This document shows positions 2,051 to 33,894 of a stretch of DNA of 64,000 bases, in pieces (position 1 is the stretch's first letter; every line of letters begins with the position of its first letter). A program made the position numbers and the translations under genes. The notes below the pieces were generated by a model. It was not told the DNA's origin. It worked only from the letters and a program-made list of their open reading frames with translations, and did no database searches. The stretch is from Deroplatys truncata (taxonomy: Eukaryota > Arthropoda > Insecta > Mantodea > Mantidae), in assembly GCA_030765065.1 (NCBI GenBank), contig CM060985.1, positions 7,936,001-8,000,000 on the forward strand, written 5' to 3'.

Positions 2051-4600
2051 ACATCAGATTTTTTGTATTATAAAGATTCTATTTTTATAACCAAACTTTC
2101 CCCAAAATATTATACGATATGATAAATGAGTAAGGAAATATGAAAAGTAGGCCATTTTAAGTACGTCAAGATTAACTGAAGTTTTAAGGGTATATAATGC
2201 AAAGCATGTATGGGATAATTCTTTAGATAGTACATCAATGTGGATTCCCCAGTCAAGGTTACTATCAACCCAGATTCCAAGAAATTTAATTTTATTATAC
2301 ATTGTTACCAAACCATTTTCTAAATAAACTTGGGCAAAATTCACATTTTTATATGATAGAATCCTAAGGCAACATTTTATTTTTAATAACAACGACAAGT
2401 CTGTTGTTATTAAACCAATTTACTACATAATCTCTTCCTGTATCAATGTTTACTGTAAGTTCTTGTTTAGTTTACCAGAAATTAAAATGCTTGTGTCATC
2501 TGCATTTAGTGTTAGGGAAGTCATTGTTTACAGCCAGGTCATTAATAACAGTAAAAATAGTAAGGGGCCTTGAGGTACTCCATATTTAACATTTTCCAAA
2601 CCAGAAGGAGAAGCTTTTATCTCTTTTGAATTTCTTATTTCAGTTAGATGTTTTATGATTCAAACACTATAATGGGATTCCCCTTATACCATAATTGCAC
2701 ATTATATCATGGTCAACCAGTTAAAAGCTTAAGATTGGTCAAGAAATAATCCCAAGCACTGGTTTCCAGCATCTACAATTTTATACACTTCTTCAATAAT
2801 GTATTGCATTGCAGAATTTGTAGATTTCCCTTGCTGAAACCCATATTGGGCTTTTTATGTAATATCCTATTGTACACTACCCTTTCGGAAAAAAACTGAA
2901 GAAATAGAAATAGGCCTATAGTTTTCTATCTCAGATTTCAAACCCTTTTTGTGTAGTGGTCTAATTTTAAAGACCTTCAAACTCTGAGGGAAGCAACCTT
3001 CTTTTAGAGATTAGTTGATCGTGTGACTGACCAGATGCAAGAAACATTTTTTTAGGAAAACTCGTCAAGACCTGGAGACTGCTTTTAATTATAGTGATCA
3101 GTTGTTGGTAAAAAGAAATACAAATAACATTTCTTTGGTCACCTAATAAAGGATTATTAGTAACATTTCCCTTTTTTCTAATATTACTGGCAACAGTTGA
3201 GAAATACTGATTGAACTCATGAGCCACTAATTGAGGATGTGACATTTATATTTATGCTAAAGTTCCTTTTGTGATCCTTGGATTCATGCTTAATAATGTT
3301 CCATACAGTTTTAGATTTATTTACAGAGTTACTCACTAGATTCCCATTATAAAGGTTTCTTGCAATTCACGTTATTCTGTTATATTTTTTTTGTAATTTA
3401 TGTAACATTGTTTTACACACAATTTCTTTTGTTAATTTACTTTGGAAACCTTGATACCTGAATACCCTTAGTAATCCATTTAGCCTTTTTATTTGTAGTT
3501 TCTTTCTTTTACCTCAACTTTCCTCCATAAAATTTATGTAAGGTCATCTAACTGATTACACTCTGTTTCATTCTATAAAAGTGATTCAGTACGATCTCTA
3601 ATTTCCTTATGAACTCATTTAAGTCACTACTGGGGTTTCTATACAATCAAATTAGTATAATCTTATAATCGCTTAGTTCAACTATACTTCCTTCAAAGAC
3701 CTCATCACACATTTGAGTACCAAAAGTGCACATAGGTTTTGGCATAGTATTTTCTTTTACAAAAATACAGGCACCACCATTATTTTTAATTTTTCTGCAA
3801 TAAGAGCTTTCCCTTATATACCTGTGTAAATTTAACATTTCAATTTGGTTATCTTTTAGCCAGTAATCAGTTAGTGTTATTATATCAACACCCTGTGGTT
3901 TACCATTTATCAATACATCTAAACTAGTATGCTTATTTCTAATACTTTGAACATTTTGATGAAATATTGCAAGAGAATTGGACAAACACTTTTTAGTTGA
4001 CTGCTCGTTTACCCCATTCAACTTTACATTGACAGTCCCTCCATCAAGCTTGGCCCCTAAATAGCTTTCACTTGAGTTCCTAGTTTTTTTACACACTGAG
4101 AATATAACACTTTTTAACAGATTGCCAAATTTGCTGGATCCCCTTCGATTGAGATGGGCCTCATCCCTGGAGGCAGGAATTCCCATCAACCATTAGACAA
4201 GTTCCTTCTAGCACAAAGCCAATCCAGTTCACTATTAATTCTTATAATTCTCCTAGTGGTAACAGCATCTTTACATTCAGCACCTGTGACCTAATGCTGC
4301 TTATCACGTCCATAATTTCCCCAATCATCTCCTCAGCCCTTAGCCCAGGACTTATGTTGTTTATACCTGTATTCAGTAAAACAATTTCCGGTTTTTCTTC
4401 TTTTTAATTCCACCCTTTCTATTTGATGTTTTATTTCCTGCAGTTAAATACCTGGGAAACAGCACACTTTGTAGCCTTTTCCCTGCATGTCTTGCCAGCA
4501 AATTCTAAAATCCAATCACCCACTTCAAGCCCTTTCCTTAAAGGCATCCAATAACTGCTACTCTCCAGCCATGCCGCACTGGAAACCCACTACACACAGC
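2041..4600 (-). mobile_element. Non-LTR retrotransposon relic (ORF1-like, APE endonuclease and RT parts)
   Basis: Minus strand, 5' end at high coordinates. 4190-4560 reads VLLNTGINNISPGL...EEMIGEIMDVISSIR and, in shifted frames, RINSELDWLCARRNLSNG, which looks like an SGNH-hydrolase-type ORF1. 3647-4189 contains the join DEAHLNRRGSSKFGNLLK and then the APE endonuclease start (LAIFHQNVQSIRNKH, SSYCRKIKNNGGACIFV). RT pieces follow: IENYRPISISSVF (~2900-2945), QYGFQQGKSTNSAMQYI (~2800-2860), GVPQGPLLFLLLINDL (~2540-2590), a catalytic ADD box in NADDTSILISGK (~2470-2510), and KFLGIWVDSNLDW (2240-2290). The QG(SILG)PLLF loop has lost codons, and many stops and shifts are present. Jockey-like by motif wording; the clade needs a tree. 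Confidence 0.85.
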
Positions 4601-18877: not shown

Positions 18878-19770
18878 TTACCTTATAGTGTCCTCAAGCC
18901 CTGTATAATATAATACACAGGAATGTGGAAAATAACACATATTCTGTTAATACAGTGATGACAGGTGAACATAACATGATGATTCATGCAAAAAAGTTGT
19001 GACTCTGCCCTTACCTTTCAAGGTCTTCAAGCCCTGATAAAATATAAACAGAGGAATCTGTAACAAAACAATGATGTTTTCTTAGTATAGTCATGATGAT
19101 ACAGTGGTGATACAGACAGAAAATGGTGACTCTTCTCTTACTTCTCAAAGACTTGATGCCCTGGTGAGAAATACCTGCAAAGGAATCTGTAACAAAACAC
19201 AAGTATTCTTCAGTCGGATTAGCTTCAGAGGATGGGAACAACTGTTTCCCGAAACATGTTAAGTGGACAAATATTCTATTAGTATAGTGATGATGATACA
19301 GTGGTGATGCATTCAAGTAAGTGGTGACACTTCTCTTACCTTTCAAGGACTTCACGCCTCTGTGAGAAACCCCTCAGAGGAACTTGTGACAATACACATA
19401 TATTGTCTTAATACAGTGATGATGATACAAGTAACTGGTGACCCTTTTCTTACCTTTCAAGGACTTCACGCCTCTGTGAGAAACCCCTCAGAGGAACTTG
19501 TAACAATACACATACATTGTCTTAATACAGTGATGATGATACAAGTAACTCGTGACCCTTTTCTTACCTTTCAAGGACTTCACACCTCTGTGAGAAACCC
19601 CTCAGAGGAACTTGTAACAATACACAGATATTGTCTTAATACAGTGATGATGATACAAGTAACTGATGACTCTTCTGTTGCCTTTCAAGAACTTCACGCC
19701 TCTGTGAGAAATACCTGCAGAGGAATCTGTAACAAAACACAGATATTCTCTTAATTCACTGATCACGCAG

Positions 19771-24205: not shown

Positions 24206-24394
24206 TTTATTCATGATACAGCATGTTTTATTGTAATTGGTAACACTACATGTTTTGGTTTTCTTTTCTTTTATGCTATTGGCTGACACGTCCTATTTCC
24301 TATTATACTGGATCATTCAATAATTAGTGGCAACATTTGAATTAACAAGAAAGAAAATATTTTTGGAACAGTCACACTGTTGCTGTGCTCAGAA

Positions 24395-24441
24395 GGAATC
24401 TCCTTAAACGTGAGTAACCCGTCTCCACACTTCAGGGAGAT
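24395..24441 (-). repeat. Left remnant of the 77-bp array / transposase C-terminus
   Basis: The sequence 'aatctccttaaacgtgagta' through 'cttcagggagat' is one partial array unit on the far side of the LINE insertion. On the minus strand it reads LPEVWRRVTHV, the C-terminal end of the mariner transposase. It then leads into the element's 3' non-coding end. Confidence 0.85.
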
Positions 24442-24496
24442 TATGTATGTATGTATGTATGTATGTATGTATGTATGTATGTATGTATGTATGTAT
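24442..24496. repeat. (ATGT)n microsatellite, LINE tail
   Basis: About 13 perfect ATGT units followed by TTTATTTATT. It is the 3' tail of the minus-strand LINE rather than an independent microsatellite. Confidence 0.9.
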
Positions 24497-24663
24497 TTAT
24501 TTATTCTGCAATTGGGTACTTCCCGGTGGCAGAATTAAACCGTACAAAATTTACATCACCATGACTAGCTTACAATAATAATAATAAACAAGACTAACAA
24601 TACAAAATGATTAATTTTAAATATTAACAAAGCTTTTAAAATCCCTAATTACTGAACCATTTA

Positions 24664-24840
24664 TAGTTTACTTAACTATTCACAATTACTTAACTATTCA
24701 CCATTTACTTCACTATTCACAATTTACTTAACTATTCACAATTTACTTAACTATTCTCAATTTACTTAACTATCTACAAAGTACTTAACAATTTACAAAG
24801 TACGTAACTATTTTCGAGGTACTTAACTATTTACAATTGG
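24664..24840. repeat. 19-bp tandem repeat in LINE 3' UTR
   Basis: Around nine degenerate copies of 'cttaactattcacaattta', with drift to 'cttaacaatttacaaagta' at the right end. Confidence 0.8.
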
Positions 24841-24922
24841 TCCTTATATTTAGTTACCAGTATTTTCAACCTGGTAGTGTCAACTTTAATAGTATAGTTT
24901 GTGAAATGAGTACACTAGTTAA

Positions 24923-26252
24923 TTAACCAACATTTATTCTGCTAATATTATTTCTGAACTGCTTTAAGGTCAGAGGACAGCCCTGAAAGCCTGCTACAGG
25001 CAATTCATTCCATTCCTCAATGGTTCTATTAACAAAAGAAAATTTTCCCACGTCGGTTCTGCACTTTCTACCCCTAATTTTAAACAGATGATCGTTTCGA
25101 CCGTAGTGTGCTGGATTCTCTAACCTTTCTCTAACATCCGCCCAAGCATTTGAACCAGTATAAGCTTTAAATAACGCAACTAATCTATGTTTTTTACGCC
25201 TAACTTTTAGCGGTTCCCATTCATTCTCTTCACCTTTTGTAAACCCAAAATCTTTACCTCTCCTTATGAATTTTATGGCCCTTCTCTGTACTTTTTCTAA
25301 GGAATCAATCTGATTGACTCTGTATGGGTCCCAACATGCTACTCCATATTCCATAACCGGCCGCACTAAAGATTTGTAGGCTAGTTCCCTGGTCTTTGCG
25401 CTCCCCTTTTTCAGTATTCTCATTACAAAATGCAATGCTTTCCACGCTTTCCTAGATGTACTATTTATCTGTTCCCCCCATCCAGCATTACTTGACAAGC
25501 ACAGTCCCAAATATTTGCAGCTGTCCACCTGTGGAATTGGTTCCCCGCCCATTTGATAGTTATGTATAATCTTCCCCTTAGTTCTGCTAAAAACAATGGA
25601 CTTACTTTTCCCAGCATTAATTGTCATTTTGTTTGCTTCGGCTCACCGCCTGATTTCATTTAGGTCGTCCTGAAGAGCAGCCTCATGCATGGAATCCCTA
25701 ATCTTATTGTAAATAATACAATCGTCTGCGAACAGTCTTATCTGGCATTTAATGTTTATATGGATATCATTAACAAAGACAAGAAACAGTAACGGGCCCA
25801 GTACCGAGCCTTGGGGCAAGCCCGAACTTACGGTCCCCCCTTCTGACAGTTCTCTACCTACTCTTACTCTTTGCGTCCTCCCTTTCAAAAATTGTTCTAC
25901 CCACAATACAACGCGATTATCAAGTCCCGCATTTGCTAGTTTCCGGATGAGTAAACTATGTGGCACTACGTCAAAAGCTTTAGAAAAATCTATCACCACT
26001 GCATCAGTCCTTCCCCCTGCATCCACCTCATCTGCCAAATCTTGAATTAATGAAGTTGTTTGACTTTCACATGAATACCCGGAACTAAACCCATGTTGCG
26101 CTTTGTTGAACCACTGTTTGTTTTCTAATTCCTCCCGTATGTATTCTGCAATTAGATGCTCCATTACTTTACACACTACCGACGTTAGGCTGACAGGCCG
26201 ATAATTATTTATTTCTGTTTTATTACCCCCTTTGTATATTGGAACTACAATG
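24923..26252 (-). pseudogene. LINE reverse transcriptase, one nonsense codon
   Basis: RT of the LINE, nearly continuous over ~440 codons. Order: NNYRPVSLTSVVCKVMEHLI (fingers), QHGFSSGYSC, DFSKAFDVVPHSLLIRKL (first catalytic Asp, ~25975), GLPQGSVLGPLLFLVFVNDI (~25800), FADDCIIY (catalytic Asp pair, ~25725). A TGA at 25643-25645 stands where a Trp-type codon is expected (EIRR-stop-AEANKM). The frame then continues with KYLGLCLSSNAGWGEQI, YKSLVRPVMEYGVACWDPY, KVQRRAIKF and a C-terminal WNELP. The endonuclease and RT start are missing through 5' truncation. One substitution is the only break I see, so this is among the youngest elements in the window. Confidence 0.88.
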
Positions 26253-29200
26253 AGGATGCCATCCACAGCATCTTGTTGCACTAATCTCCTTAAACGTGAG
26301 TAACCTGTCTCCACACTTCAGGGAGATGACTGATGCCATCCACAGCATCTTGTTTCACTAATCTCCTTAAACGTGAGTAACCTGTCTCCACACTTCAGGG
26401 AGATGACTGATGCCATCCACAGCATCTTGTTTCACTAATCTCCTTAAACGTGAGTAACCAGTCTCCACACTTCAGGGAGATGACTGATGCCATCCACAGC
26501 GTCTTGTTGCACTATTCTCCTTAAACATGAGTAACCCGTCTCCACACTTCAGGGAGATGACTGATGCCATCCACAGCATCTTGTTACACTAATCTCCTTA
26601 AACGTGAGTAACCAGTCTCCACACTTCAGCGAGATGACTGATACCATCCACAGCATCTTGTTGCACTATTCTCCTTAAACGTGAGTAACCAGTCTCCACA
26701 CTTCAGGGAGATGACTGATACCATCCACAGCATCTTGTTACACTAATCTCCTTAAACGTAACCCGTCTCCACACTTCAGGGAGATGACTGATGCCATCCA
26801 CAGCATCTTGTTACACTAATCTCCTTAAACATGAGTAACCAGTCTCCACACTTCACGGAGATGACAGATGCCATCCACAGCATCTTGTTGCACTAATCTC
26901 CTTAAACATGAATAACCCGTCTCCACACTTCAGGGAGATGTCTGATGCCATCCACAGCATCTTGTATCACTAATCTCCTTAAACATGAATAACCCGTCTC
27001 CACACTTCAGGGAGATGACTGATGCCATCCACAGCATCTTGTTGCACTAATCTCCTTAAACGTGAGTAACCCGTCTCCACACTTCAGGGAGATGACTGAT
27101 GCCATCCACAGCATCTTGTTGCACTAATCTTCTTAAACATGAGTAACCAGTCTCCACACTTCAGGGAGATGTCTGATACCATCCACAGCATCTTGTTGCA
27201 CTAATCTCCTTAAACATGAGTAACCAGTCTCCACACTTCAGGGAGATGAGTGATGCCATCCACAGCATCTTGTTGCAGTAATCTCCTTAAACATGAGTAA
27301 CCCGTCTCCACACTTCAGGGAGATGAGTGATGCCATCCACAGCATCTTGTTGCAGTAATCTCCTTAAACATGAATAACCCGTCTCCACACTTCAGGGAGA
27401 TGTCTGATGCCATCCACAGCATCTTGTTGCACTATTCTCTTTAAACATGAGTAACCAGTCTCCACACTTCAGGGAGATGACTGATACCATCCACAGCATC
27501 TTGTTGCACTAATCTCTTTAAACATGTATAACCCGTCTCCACACTTCAGGGAGATGACTGATGCCATCCACAGCATCTTGTTGCACTAATCTCTTTAAAC
27601 ATATATAACCCGTCTCCACACTTCAGGGAGATGACTGATGTCATCCACAGCATCTTGTTGCACTTATCTCCTTAAACATGAATAACCCGTCTCCACACTT
27701 CAGGGAGATGTCTGATGCCATCCACAGCATCTTGTTGCACTATTCTCTTTAAACATGAGTAACCCATCTCCACACTTCAGATATATGACTGATACCATCC
27801 ACTGCATCTTGTTGCACTAATCTTCTTAAACATGAATAACCAGTCTCCACACTTCAGGGAGATGACTGATGCCATCCACAGCATCTTGTTGCACTAATCT
27901 TCTTAAACATGAGTAACCTGTCTCCACACTTCAGGGAGATGACTGATGCCATCCACAGCATCTTGTTGCACTAATCTTCTTAAACATGAGTAACCCATCT
28001 CCACACTTCAGGGAGATGACTGATGCCATCCACAGCATCTTGTTGCACTAATCTTCTTAAACATGAGTAACCTGTCTCCACACTTCAGGGAGATGACTGA
28101 TGCCATCCACAGCATCTTGTTGCACTAATCTCCTTAAACATGAGTAACCTGTCTCCACACTTCAGGGAGATGACTGATGCCATCCACAGCATCTTGTTGC
28201 ACTAATCTCCTTAAACATGAGTAACCCGTCTCCACACTTCAGGGAGATGACTAATGCTATCCACAGCATCTTGTTGCACTAATCTCCTTAAACGTGAGTA
28301 ACCCATCTCCACACATCAGGGAGATGACTGATGCCATCCACAGCATCTTGTTGCACTAATCTCCTTAAACATGAGTAACCAGTCTCCACACTTCAGGGAG
28401 ATGACTGATGCCATCCACAGCATCTTGTTGCACTAATCTCCTTAAACGTGAGTAACCTGTCTCCACACTTCAGGGAGATGACTGATGCCATCCACAGCAT
28501 CTTGTTGCACTAATCTCCTTAAACATGAGTAACCAGTCTCCACACTTCAGGGAGATGACTGATGCCATCCACAGCATCTTGTTGCACTAATCTCCTTAAA
28601 CGTGAATAACCCGTCTCCACACTTCAGGGAGATGACTGATGCCATCCACAGCATCTTGTTGCACTAATCTTCTTAAACATCAGTAACCCATCTCCACACT
28701 TCAGGGAGATGAGGATGCCATCCACAGCATCTTGTTGCACTAATCTCCTTAAACATCAGTAACCCATCTCCACACTTCAGGGAGATGATTGATACCATCC
28801 ACAGCATCTTGTTGCACTAATCTTCTTAAACATGAGTAACCCGTCCCCACACTTCAGGGAGATGACTGATGCCATCCACAGCATCTTGTTGCACTAATCT
28901 CCTTAAACGTGAATAACCCGTCTCCACACTTCAGGGAGATGACTGATACCATCCACAGCATCTTGTTTCACTAATCTCCTTAAACGTGAGTAACCCGTCT
29001 CCACACTTCAGGAAGATGAAGGATGCCATCCACAGCATCTTGTTGCACTAATCTCCTTAAACATCAGTAACCGATCTCCACACTTCAGGGAGATGAGGAT
29101 GCCAACCACAGCATCTTGTTTCACTAATCTTCTTAAACATCAGTAACCGATCTCCACACTTCAGGGAGATGAGGATGCCATCCACAGCATCTTGTTGCAC

Positions 29201-30200
29201 TAATCTTCTTAAACATCAGTAACCGATCTCCACACTTCAGGGAGATGAGGATGCCATCCACAGCATCTTGTTGCACTAATCTTCTTAAACATCAGTAACC
29301 CATCTCCACACTTCAGGGAGATGAGGATGCCAACCACAGCATCTTGTTGCACTAATCTTCTTAAACATCAGTAACCCATCTCCACACTTCAGGGAGATGA
29401 GGATGCCATCCACAGCATCTTGTTGCACTAATCTTCTTAAACATCAGTAACCCATCTCCACATTCAGGGAGATGAGGATGCCATCCACAGCATCTTGTTG
29501 CACTAATCTTCTTAAACATCAGTAACCCATCTCCACATTCAGGGAGATGAGGATGCCATCCACAGCATCTTGTTGCACTAATCTTCTTAAACATCAGTAA
29601 CCCATCTCCACACTCAGGGAGATGAGGATACCATCCACAGCATCTTGTTGCACTAATCTTCTTAAACATGAGTAACCCGTCCCCACACTTCAGGGAGATG
29701 ACTGATACCATCCACAGCATCTTGTTGCACTAATCTTCTTAAACATGAGTAACCCGTCCCCACACTTCAGGGAGATGACTGATACCATCCACAGCATCTT
29801 GTTGCACTAATCTTCTTAAACATGAGTAACCCGTCCCCACACTTCAGGGAGATGACTGATGCCATCCACAGCATCTTGTTGCACTAATCTTCTTAAACGT
29901 GAGTAACCCGTCTCCACACTTCAGGGAGATGACTGATACCATCCACAGCATCTTGTTGCACTAATCTACTTAAACATGAATAACCCGTCTCCACACTTCA
30001 GGGAGATGACTGATACCATCCACAGCATCTTGTTGCACTAATCTCCTTAAACATGAGTAACCCGTCCCCACACTTCAGGGAGATGACTGATACCATCCAC
30101 AGCATCTTGTTGCACTAATCTCCTTAAACGTGAGTAACCTGTCTCCACACTTCAGGGAGATGAGTGATACCATCCACAGCATCTTGTTGCACTAATCTTC
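26252..30200. repeat. 77-bp minisatellite (~51 units) made from mariner transposase coding sequence
   Basis: The unit runs 'gactgatgccatccacagca', 'tcttgttgcactaatctcct', 'taaacgtgagtaacctgtct', 'ccacacttcagggagat' (77 bp). Read on the minus strand, one unit encodes RRLVQQDAVDGI.HLPEVWR followed by QVTHV, the C-terminal tail that follows VAAVD in this transposase; at 30200 the array is continuous with that coding sequence. Variants: GACTGATGCC or GACTGATACC (77 bp) dominate; GAGGATGCC units (76 bp) cluster at ~28690-29640, and those with CACATTCAGG or CACACTCAGG (75 bp) lie at ~29440-29640. Other markers (ACGTGAG/ACATGAG/ACATCAG, TCTCC/TCTTC) also come in runs, pointing to local spread by unequal exchange. 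Confidence 0.95.
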
Positions 30201-30207
30201 GAACAGA

Positions 30208-30531
30208 CTAGTCTACTGCTGCTACAATTGCCTGTCTTGCTCTAAAGCGAACTCCTCTAAGTGGTAATTTCATTTTTGCAAAAAGGTCAAAATCATATGG
30301 GCTCATATCTGGGGAGTATGGAGGATGCTCCAGAATTTCCCAGTTCCATCTGCGAAATAAATTAACCGCAGGACCAGCTATGTGATAGCGAGCACCATCA
30401 TGGACATTTGGACATCTATGACACACAGCTGGTCGTAAATGGTGTTCCAGAAAGTAACTGTAATATTGTGGCATATTATTAATTTTATTGTCATTGCCAG
30501 ATGCACTGTTGTGCTGTATTGTTGCTACCAT
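30208..30531 (-). pseudogene. mariner transposase, DDE C-terminal half
   Basis: Reads QYYSYFLEHHLRPAV, VHDGARYHIAGPAVNLF (second catalytic Asp), HPPYSPDMSPYDFDLF (third catalytic Asp) and LRGVRFRARQAIVAAVD. There are 34 residues between the two Asp, the classic DD34D spacing. A TAG codon follows VAAVD where Arg is expected, then the frame continues SVRRLVQQDAVDGI straight into the tandem array. The first catalytic Asp belongs to the missing centre. Confidence 0.88.
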
Positions 30532-30945
30532 TATTGTGTCTCCTTAGTTATACTTTGGCTTAAAGGTCTTTCCTTTCGGCACGGATCATGCAAAAGAGAA
30601 AGGTCTGTTTGAAACTGTCTAGTATGACGTCAGCCCTGTCTGGCTTTGGCTGGACACGGTTGGTGGAGGTAAGATAGTGTTACTCCAGTGGAAGTGGTCA
30701 TTGGAGCCAGTCGTATGTGTGGCTAGTCTATGCTTTCATGGCATCTGCCTCCATCCTGTTTCCTTTATTCATTATGTAGAGTTGCCAAATGTTTTGTGAA
30801 TAAATCCCATGTATGTAATGGTAATGTGTGTTATGTAATATAAAACCCACACTTTCCCCTTAAATCTACACACCAAGGTCCCAGACTCTTTGCTGCCAGC
30901 AAGTTGCGTCGCGCCATGTGCGTGTGTAGGTGACCTCAATTAATA
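30480..30945. other. Unassigned insertion splitting the mariner transposase
   Basis: The transposase reading leaves off after LLSHSLPV...GVKAKK (~30960-31050) and resumes at QYYSYFLEHH (~30470). The ~460 bp between have no counterpart in mariner elements. They contain TTAATAATTTT-type sequence at one side and TTATTAATTTTA at the other. I could not classify the insert; a solo LTR or MITE is possible. Confidence 0.5.
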
Positions 30946-31019
30946 ATTTTCTAGTAACCTTTTTTGCCTTCACCCCAACTTGTAACAATATGCACCATTC
31001 ACACAGGAAGTGAATGACT

Positions 31020-31499
31020 GAGAAGGACACCATCAAAATCATCAGCAACTATGAACATGACTTTAAGTGGATCCTGATACTTTTTTGACCGTGGGGAATC
31101 ATTGTGGTGTCACACATTTGATTGTCTCTTTAGTTTTTGTTGGTAGCATCTAAAGTTATGAAGGAAATGCTTGCCTTCATGTACAATGTTCTCTTCTTCA
31201 AGATTGTGTGGAACCCATTGAGTGCAGATTTTCCTCATCTGTATAACTTCTTCTTGTGATCACACCTGGAGCAATTCCAACTTCCCTTACTAGTTCAATA
31301 CAAGTCCAACAATGGTGTTCTTCCAGCATGCTCTAACAGTGTCCACATGTACTTGCAGTCTGCCAGCTCTACATTTCCCTACCTCTGCATGTGCCCACCT
31401 ACCGCAAGCTTCCAGTAATGCTGCATGGCATTGTTGAGCATTCTTGCCTCTTGTAACTTGAATTTTAATGAAGCATCTTTGTTCTTATTTACTGAACAT
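31020..31499 (-). pseudogene. mariner transposase, N-terminal part
   Basis: The likely start ATG is at 31497-31499, giving MFSK-stop-EQRCFIKIQV, then GKNAQQCHAALLEACGR, VHVDTVRA, MRKICTQWVPHNL, QQKLKRQSNV and VADDFDGVLLSHSLPV. Several stops, frame shifts and internal deletions remove the helix-turn-helix linker and the first catalytic DET box. It starts ~180 bp inside the right inverted end at 31653-31681. Confidence 0.8.
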
Positions 31500-31683
31500 T
31501 TTAGAGCACAACAGTCAACAAATTAAACTCACTACAAATATCTTATAAATAAGATTACTGTCTTCAAACTCACAGATAACACCATCAGATGCTGTTCTTA
31601 CTCATTGTTATCAGTTTGCATCATTTACCACTAATAGTGCCACATACAAACATTGTTGCCACTAATTACTGAATGATCCATGT

Positions 31684-33894
31684 ATACTCCCTACAAACTA
31701 ACTAGTACCTATTAGTTTTCTTTTCAAAAGGTTGTAATATTGATTTATAGGTTGCTTAATCGTTGAATTTATTTTAAACCATAGTTATACAAATTATAAT
31801 TATATTTAAGAATTCCGAATGTTACAAGTACAATTTTTAATAAATATTAGCTAGTGTACTTGCGTTGAAATGTCTACTTACATATTCTGTAAGTCAATAG
31901 CATTTACAAATGTGCAGTATTTGTTCATAAGTTGTGATATTAAATCTATTTTGCTCACTTGCCATGTTCATCCTTTTCTTAAGATATCTGCCTGTAGTTT
32001 TCCTTTTTCCATGTTTAGTTAATTGCATTAGTTTGGGGCAGCTTGGATCATCCAGTCTGTGATAGTCTTCCATGTCCTCTTAGCATTGTTGTTAAGGGAA
32101 TTCTTTGTTTTATTCTCTGGGCTATGTTAAGGAAATTCTTTTTTTTTACTTCACCTTTTATTCTGCTTTGCCATTCACTTTCCAAATGGTATCTTGTCAT
32201 AAATCTCACTTTATTGTTTGTTGTAATCTTTTTACCTTCTCTACTACTAGTGGTGTAGATAATGGGGAGTCCAGACCCCCTGGACACCCCCCAAAATATA
32301 AAAAGGTGAAAAAACTAAAAATGGAAACAAAAATCAAAATTGCAAATAGCAGTAAAGCAATAATGTGGATGCTGCTAAATTAAAATTAAATATATATTCC
32401 TTATGTGCATAGCCATAAAAAGCCCAAGGCTGGGAAACAACTGGCACCAGTTTCTTAATATGGCAGCTCCTTTATGCTACAACCATAATCCTGGCTTTCC
32501 CTTTAATGTAAATAACTATGCTACTTATAAATGTAGGGTTCATTCCAACCTGATCTTGTGTAGTGTACTTCAGCTGGTGCTATATTGTTTGCAATTGACA
32601 AATAGTGCAGTCCTGGCTGCAACCAAGGACACGTGTGTGGTGGGGAAGTGTGCAGCATAAGATTTGTTGGTTAACCTAATAGTCAGGGAGCATGGAATAG
32701 GGTGATCACTTTGACTTTCATGATATAAACAGCACCATCTGTTGGTTTTATAGTAAATGTTTGCCTCACTTCTGGTCATCCATATATTGAACGTTTCACT
32801 GCTGTGTTTCAACTGGTGAATGCAGGTAAACGGTGCTATAGGGAGAAACAATGAATTCCCTTCAGTCTCTTCTAGTACCACTAACTTTTTCAACACTAAA
32901 CTTGAAAGGTCTTGGTAGACCTACACCAAACTTAAAGATCACTCAGCTGTTAAAACAGAAACAAGATGTTTAAACTGGATATGTGTGGTTGTGATATTAA
33001 GAACACCCTATTTTGCTTTCCTTGGGTTTTATTTGGTAGTGAAGACACACTGAAGATCGGCACATAAAACGTGGTGATAATGGTTTTTAGCATCTTCACA
33101 ACTTCCCCAAAAAACATGGTTTATAATAGCACAGCTATCACTAAACATGCTGATGATATTTGGAAGTGTGTAATTTTTAATAACAAACATTTATGTAGCA
33201 AAACTGTCGGTGCAGTCTTTATTACTTTAACAAATGAAATTGCAGCTACATATAGCTTCATGAACCACCAGCTGCCCCTGGAAACAACAAACGCAGATCA
33301 CAGCTGACACACATGCGTAATAAAAACACAAACAACACAATCACTATATACATAAAGTGGATCGGACAATATATAAAGTCCTTGCGACTTTGATCGCTCC
33401 CATATAGTTGAAGAGTTTTACAGGCAACCGACGACCCTCTTTGCACCATCAGTGGCTCTGCGTCACTGGGAACAGATTGACTACATTGAAGGCTTACAAA
33501 ACTTAGAACTATGAAATAACATAGCTGCCAGGACCTCTTGTATTTAACATACTTACAATGTATATCTTGAATTTTCTGTGAAGTCCTTTTCATGCTGCAG
33601 GACTTTTGTTTAATCTGGAAACATCAAGTGATAGATGAAAACGTGCTTCACAAGAAAGTGTGTACGTGTCTCTCTCTCTCTTCTTTTTCTTGCTTCTCAA
33701 TATTCTGATGTTAGATTTTCAAAAGCCATAAGAGAGTCACAATTTAGGAGAAGTTGCAAGTCCATTTTTTCTTCCTTGGAGCACAATATGGAGTTGTTAC
33801 TATTCCAATTTTGTAAAGATGTTTATTCAAACAATCATGTCCTGTGCTAAGTCAGAATGCAGAAGATTTTCTTGGTAAACAGGAATTATTGATG
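31684..33894. other. Unassigned interval
   Basis: About 2.2 kb without a recognisable gene or repeat. Open frames of 70-111 codons on both strands at 32043-33593 overlap each other, show no domain and are likely chance. Confidence 0.45.

Follow-up and report, generated by a model that had tools for sequence, protein, structure and literature searches.

A 77-bp minisatellite within a decayed mariner element of the mantis Deroplatys truncata and its probable origin from the end of the transposase gene

Minisatellites derived from transposable elements (TEs) are well documented. In the human genome 7,276 cases were described, of which 300 have direct repeats of 5-20 bp at their flanks (Ahmed and Liang 2012, PMC3389668). 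One example, derived from an AluJo, has 17 units of 52 bp, and established models accounted for only 6% of the human TE-derived tandem repeats (PMC3389668). In the Haber-Louis model, a segment between direct repeats of 5-10 bp is duplicated by slippage or unequal exchange and then grows (cited in PMC6947457 and PMC3389668). Cut-and-paste elements that contain tandem repeats in variable copy number include miDNA4 of Xenopus, a miniature inverted-repeat transposable element (MITE) for whose repeats microhomology was proposed (PMC12628747), and Merlin elements (PMC8101967). Satellites from the coding sequence of long interspersed nuclear elements (LINEs) include PROsat and Pvc 20, which stem from L1 ORF2, and the chicken HinfI satellite, which stems from CR1 (PMC9659126). 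Here we describe an array of 77-bp units in a decayed mariner-like element of the mantis Deroplatys truncata (GenBank assembly GCA_030765065.1, contig CM060985.1, forward-strand positions 7,936,001 to 8,000,000; this stretch of 64,000 nucleotides is called the window, and coordinates refer to it unless given for the contig).

Like the human minisatellites, the locus would be an internal TE segment expanded at its own locus by local duplication (PMC3389668); unlike them, its source is mariner transposase coding sequence, it has ~50 units, and paralogous arrays are available for comparison. Nothing tested here contradicts the Haber-Louis model, and the unexpanded form can be read directly from dispersed relatives. 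With miDNA4 (PMC12628747) and Merlin (PMC8101967) the locus shares tandem repeats inside a cut-and-paste element. However, the miDNA4 repeat is thought to have been captured by a MITE (PMC12628747) and the Merlin repeats lie mainly in 5' and 3' regions (PMC8101967), whereas the repeat described here comes from the element's own coding sequence and, among the matches listed in our genome search, has spread only by segmental duplication. PROsat, Pvc 20 and HinfI likewise have units from TE coding sequence (PMC9659126), but their source is a retrotransposon; here it is a DNA transposon, of which one locus was multiplied by segmental duplication, again among the matches listed. In the literature searched, which was mainly open-licence with few subscription journals, we found no report of an array that stems from the transposase gene of a mariner. 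The case adds completeness and not a new mechanism. The birth of a minisatellite is usually inferred without the ancestor, whereas here dispersed copies still preserve the unexpanded form. The gene contains a short repeat whose spacing equals the period. The paralogous arrays, whose flank divergence can be measured, reveal the pace at which the order of units disappears. All this makes the locus a useful worked example of minisatellite birth.

We propose, with a probability of about 0.88, that the array is the expanded last 77 bp of a decayed mariner transposase gene. These 77 bp would first have been tandemly duplicated within the mariner-like element, when replication slipped or an unequal exchange took place between two AGATTA hexamers spaced 77 bp apart in the gene. 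Unequal exchange or gene conversion would then have enlarged the duplication to a minisatellite of ~50 units without a coding role. Subsequently, a LINE would have inserted into the terminal unit and the locus would have been multiplied in a tandem segmental duplication of ~109 kb, in which three arrays were found. Continued local turnover would have remodelled these arrays until unit order was lost. The slippage and exchange events themselves we infer.

Tandem Repeats Finder (TRF) placed the array at 26255-30198, with a period of 77, 51.4 copies, 94% matches, 0% indels and a score of 6649. Anchor-based splitting of the window array yielded 51 full units (41 of 77 bp, 6 of 76 bp, 3 of 75 bp and 1 of 73 bp). 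The units are head-to-tail and fall within the 10-100 bp of minisatellites, and both copy number and unit order vary between the paralogous arrays. Minisatellites are typically richer in G+C than their surroundings and strand-asymmetric, although this is not required; two sub-windows in the array had a G+C content of 0.44-0.45 and a GC skew of -0.28, and the other sub-windows had a G+C content of 0.30-0.40.

The genome (4.29 Gb) was searched with a 401-bp query from the array; the best candidates were scored, so that the counts are lower bounds. Of at least 81 matches, 44 lay in three arrays on one contig (C11, which carries the window), within copies of one duplicated mariner. The remaining matches, at least 37, were single, about 70-101 bp long and spread over many contigs, and no array outside the duplicated mariner was found among the matches listed. 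From the single-match places we sampled 20 relatives (L029-L048), ranking after the ten best. They were retrieved with the unit as query and hence test its context and copy number, not its presence. In all 20 relatives the unit lies downstream of the DDE half of the transposase gene and upstream of the mariner 3' end, and each 3-kb locus contains a single copy of the unit core; in this region L034 has an insert of roughly 380 bp and L041 a short deletion. The family majority over 105 columns (19 relatives; L034 was set aside) reads VRRLVQQDAVDGIRRLPEVWRRVIHVGGDYF followed by a stop. We also used a 141-bp query, 96 bp of which lie outside the unit. The matches listed (40 scored) comprised the three copies of the duplication, at 100% identity, and 37 further ones with 87-91%. 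Each of the 37 matched the query from base 1-11 onward, hence with the unit part included. This result is partly independent of the unit-based retrieval.

The family majority contains AGATTA at either border of the segment, once within the RRLV codons and once within the GDYF codons, at a distance of 77 bp. It thus carries direct repeats of the 5-10 bp length named in the Haber-Louis model, spaced by one period. Both AGATT boxes were intact in 11 of the 20 relatives, with a spacing of 77 bp in 8, 76 bp in 1 and 74 bp in 2. The transposase gene itself seems to set the 77-bp period, and the AGATTA pair fits a microhomology-mediated founding duplication as in the Haber-Louis model. The array majority differed from the family majority in 8 of 105 columns, a value inside the span shown by single decayed copies (4-14 of 92-105 columns). 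An in-frame TAA (ancestral frame) was present in 144 of 146 units of the three arrays, among them the full units at both ends of every array, and also in a unit remnant beyond the LINE. Because this stop is common to nearly all units and the period of 77 cannot be divided by 3, so that the reading frame is lost between units, the founder mariner was probably dead when the expansion began, as we infer from the sequence. The stop may also have spread later by conversion.

The element is bounded by inverted ends (GGATCATTCARTAATTAGTGGCAACA) at 24310-24335 on the plus strand and 31654-31679 on the minus strand, with 0 mismatches (0 matches in 100 shuffles), and direct reading of the sequence showed a flanking TA at 24306-24307 and 31683-31684. 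Its parts are the following.

24308..31682, minus strand: whole decayed mariner-like element including insertions, 7375 bp (inverted ends and flanking TA)
24308..24396, minus strand: native 3' end of the mariner with last codons, stop, 3' untranslated stretch and inverted end (translation, relatives)
24397..24441, minus strand: remnant of the terminal unit, 45 bp, separated from the array by the LINE and running into the native 3' end of the gene (sequence, translation, relatives)
24442 to ~26254, minus strand: LINE fragment with reverse transcriptase and (TATG)n tail; it interrupts the terminal unit (RVT_1, E 2.1e-27; junctions)
26255..30198, minus strand: 77-bp minisatellite, 51 full units, from C-terminal codons of the transposase (TRF, anchor-based splitting, family majority)
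30199..30466, minus strand: C-terminal catalytic (DDE) half of the transposase, continuous with the array (open reading frame; matches to SETMAR and Mos1 structures)
30467..30986, no strand assigned: insert of ~520 bp inside the transposase gene (the flanking pieces adjoin in relatives such as L029)
30987..31682, minus strand: what is left of the N-terminal transposase half, which is longer in relatives, together with the 5' untranslated stretch and the inverted end on the right (translation, relatives)

The sequence-only reading had placed about 51 tandem 77-bp units at 26252..30200, read them on the minus strand as the C-terminal tail of the transposase, continuous with the DDE half of the same gene, and located the whole between the mariner's own inverted ends and TA. 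All of this was borne out: TRF gave nearly the same limits and copy number, the translation reads much as proposed, the catalytic half adjoins the array, and inverted ends and TA are in place. Its central claim, that the gene segment itself was expanded and that no satellite merely neighbours the transposon, agrees with the single, in-place unit of all 20 unexpanded relatives. Two observations had been named that would speak against it. Relatives lacking the unit at the C-terminus were not seen among the 20 fetched, though these had been retrieved by the unit itself, and arrays independent of mariner were absent from the at least 81 matches listed genome-wide. The claim that the element had grown to 7.4 kb held for its length (7375 bp), but the array contributed only ~3.9 kb of it, the rest including ~1.8 kb of LINE and the insert of ~0.5 kb. 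A further amendment is that the array occurs in three copies of a segmental duplication, of which the window holds one.

The open reading frame of the window transposase matched the structures of SETMAR (E 5.2e-10) and Mos1 (E 5.4e-9) in PDB, with a range of 5.2e-10 to 1.4e-7 over the SETMAR and Mos1 matches. Of the relatives, L046 matched the Mos1 structure (E 1.8e-12) and L032 matched HTH_48 in Pfam (E 5.1e-5), with 23.8 bits slightly below the cut-off of 24.1. The Pfam scan returned no family for the window open reading frame and, for L046, solely an unrelated family below threshold; membership in mariner therefore rests on the PDB matches and the relatives. The spacing between the second and third catalytic aspartates is 34 residues, counted by eye in the open reading frame from HDGA... 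to ...SPYDFDLF. A spacing of 34 residues (DD34D) defines mariners. Judging from its stops, missing stretches and insertions, the window copy is dead. The LINE fragment is apparently 5'-truncated and landed in the terminal unit, because the 45-bp unit remnant sits beyond it and runs into the native gene end. The ~520-bp insert is probably an interspersed repeat, judged from its occurrence: L043 alone among the 20 relatives shares sizeable parts of it. The parts also matched in L043 are ~210 bp on the side of the DDE half, together with a short piece at the opposite end.

Self-comparison of 264 kb (7.796-8.060 Mb of the contig) revealed head-to-tail copies ~109 kb apart. Among the matches listed, the long blocks were mostly 96-99% identical, and some repeat-rich ones were down to ~83%. 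Mariner, LINE and array are present in each of three copies (A, B and C), of which C is complete except for its far right end. The window (1-64000) lies within the middle one, copy B, of the three head-to-tail copies of ~109 kb, which span about 7.796-8.085 Mb. The arrays have 46 (A), 51 (B) and 49 (C) full units. The LINE junctions are identical in all three copies, and the LINE was thus inserted before the segmental duplication. Positions 24305-24445 of the window are likewise identical (100%) across the three copies. The (TATG)n tail of the LINE is 63 bp long in the window (24442-24504), shorter in copy C and ~2.1 kb long in copy A (7849910-7852004 of the contig); besides the array, another repeat within this element has therefore undergone a strong change in size.

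Flank divergence measured among the copies was 0-2.2%. Between A and B, we counted 3 substitutions in 2981 positions of the left flank, 0 in 128 of the mariner 3' end 20 in 1740 of the LINE, 27 in 1468 on the DDE side and 24 in 2986 of the right flank. Over the first ~900 bp of the DDE flank the counts were 20/904 (A-B), 6/921 (A-C) and 16/904 (B-C). Divergence between A and B is thus uneven, with 0.1% left of the mariner and 1.8-2.2% immediately right of the array, a pattern that could point to conversion in patches between the copies.

The order of units is no more collinear between the arrays than expected by chance. When units with at most 1 difference were matched, the largest collinear sets comprised 7 units for A and B, 12 for A and C and 8 for B and C, and the means after shuffling were 7.6, 10.2 and 7.5. 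In a control, a duplicated array subjected to point changes alone at 0.1-2.2% divergence kept 16-51 collinear pairs in all runs. Simulation with assumed block sizes and size limits required ~40-80 random block duplications or deletions per lineage to reach the observed collinearity. Traces of local turnover were seen within the arrays. Units close together resembled each other more than units far apart; the trend was clear in B (3.9 differences at lag 1 against 5.7 at lag 8) and weak in A and C. Exact 3-unit blocks recurred within A and C, which was reached by 0 and 2 of 100 shuffles, respectively. Moreover, 62 of 139 units (copy C was incomplete here) had their nearest neighbours solely in their own array, compared with a mean of 21.3 for shuffled labels. 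We searched the mainly open-licence literature for the turnover of paralogous minisatellites and found no paper. We tentatively consider that the locus may be a germline-hypermutable minisatellite, whose arrays would have lost any detectable common order of units while their flanks diverged by 0-2.2%, and the mariner family a standing source of such arrays, because the ancestral gene carried the hexamer pair spaced by 77 bp; this would go rather far, and we think it unlikely to hold.

Order at chance level could also result if only a short array had been present at the segmental duplication and each copy had then grown independently, instead of a long array having been reshuffled. That no exact run of more than 1 unit is common to different arrays agrees with this alternative as well. 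However, among the 107 distinct unit types of the 146 units, 7 exact types are common to more than one array, and all three arrays segregate for several base variants; variant units therefore predate the duplication or were exchanged later. We regard independent growth as possible but doubtful.

An assembly artefact, by false tandem expansion or by placement of alternative haplotypes end to end, would also produce three arrays, and the flank difference of 0-2.2% could be allelic. Three copies, however, are more than two haplotypes provide, and the arrays share few units (7 of 107 types), unlike one sequence placed repeatedly. This explanation is improbable. Still less credible is that a pre-existing satellite was captured by, or inserted beside, the mariner. 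Such capture was proposed in print for a Tc1/mariner MITE, the Xenopus miDNA4 (PMC12628747), but in each of the 20 relatives studied here the unit forms one collinear segment of the transposase gene, flanked on either side by gene sequence, and the genome matches listed include no array outside this element. Given this context, we reject a unit foreign to the transposon gene. Finally, it is very improbable that the repeats were kept for function, as a repeated protein domain or a transposase-binding array: the units are alike (94%), but local duplication accounts for their similarity, the single-strand fold of the unit is unremarkable (z 0.89 and 0.94), and frame (77 is not a multiple of 3) and stop (144 of 146 units) lead us to reject a coding or domesticated role.

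Several points weigh against the proposed expansion of the transposase gene end. One or both AGATT boxes are mutated in 9 of the 20 relatives, and the downstream box of the window copy has diverged to AGATTCC, so that 5 bases remain identical. The unit is present in the 20 relatives by selection, as it served as query. The C-terminal peptide VRRLVQQDAVDGIRRLPEVWRRVIHVGGDYF alone matched no mariner structure in PDB (the best hit was unrelated, E 0.5), and the search for recurring exact unit blocks found none in array B. Slippage, unequal crossing-over and gene conversion are indistinguishable here, and the array lengths rest on one assembly.

Further repeats and elements were observed besides the array. 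At 19296-19763 of the window TRF reported 4.1 copies of a 114-bp unit with a 91% match. At one end of the L040 locus, a minus-strand open reading frame contains another tandem array with the unit NYLKYIYIVMFHFWNTASPPVMSR, beside the unexpanded mariner copy. In L042 (positions 2169-3076), the unexpanded copy is accompanied by what appears, by eye, to be a second and different mariner, in which an HTH-like and a DDE-like part occupy separate open frames.

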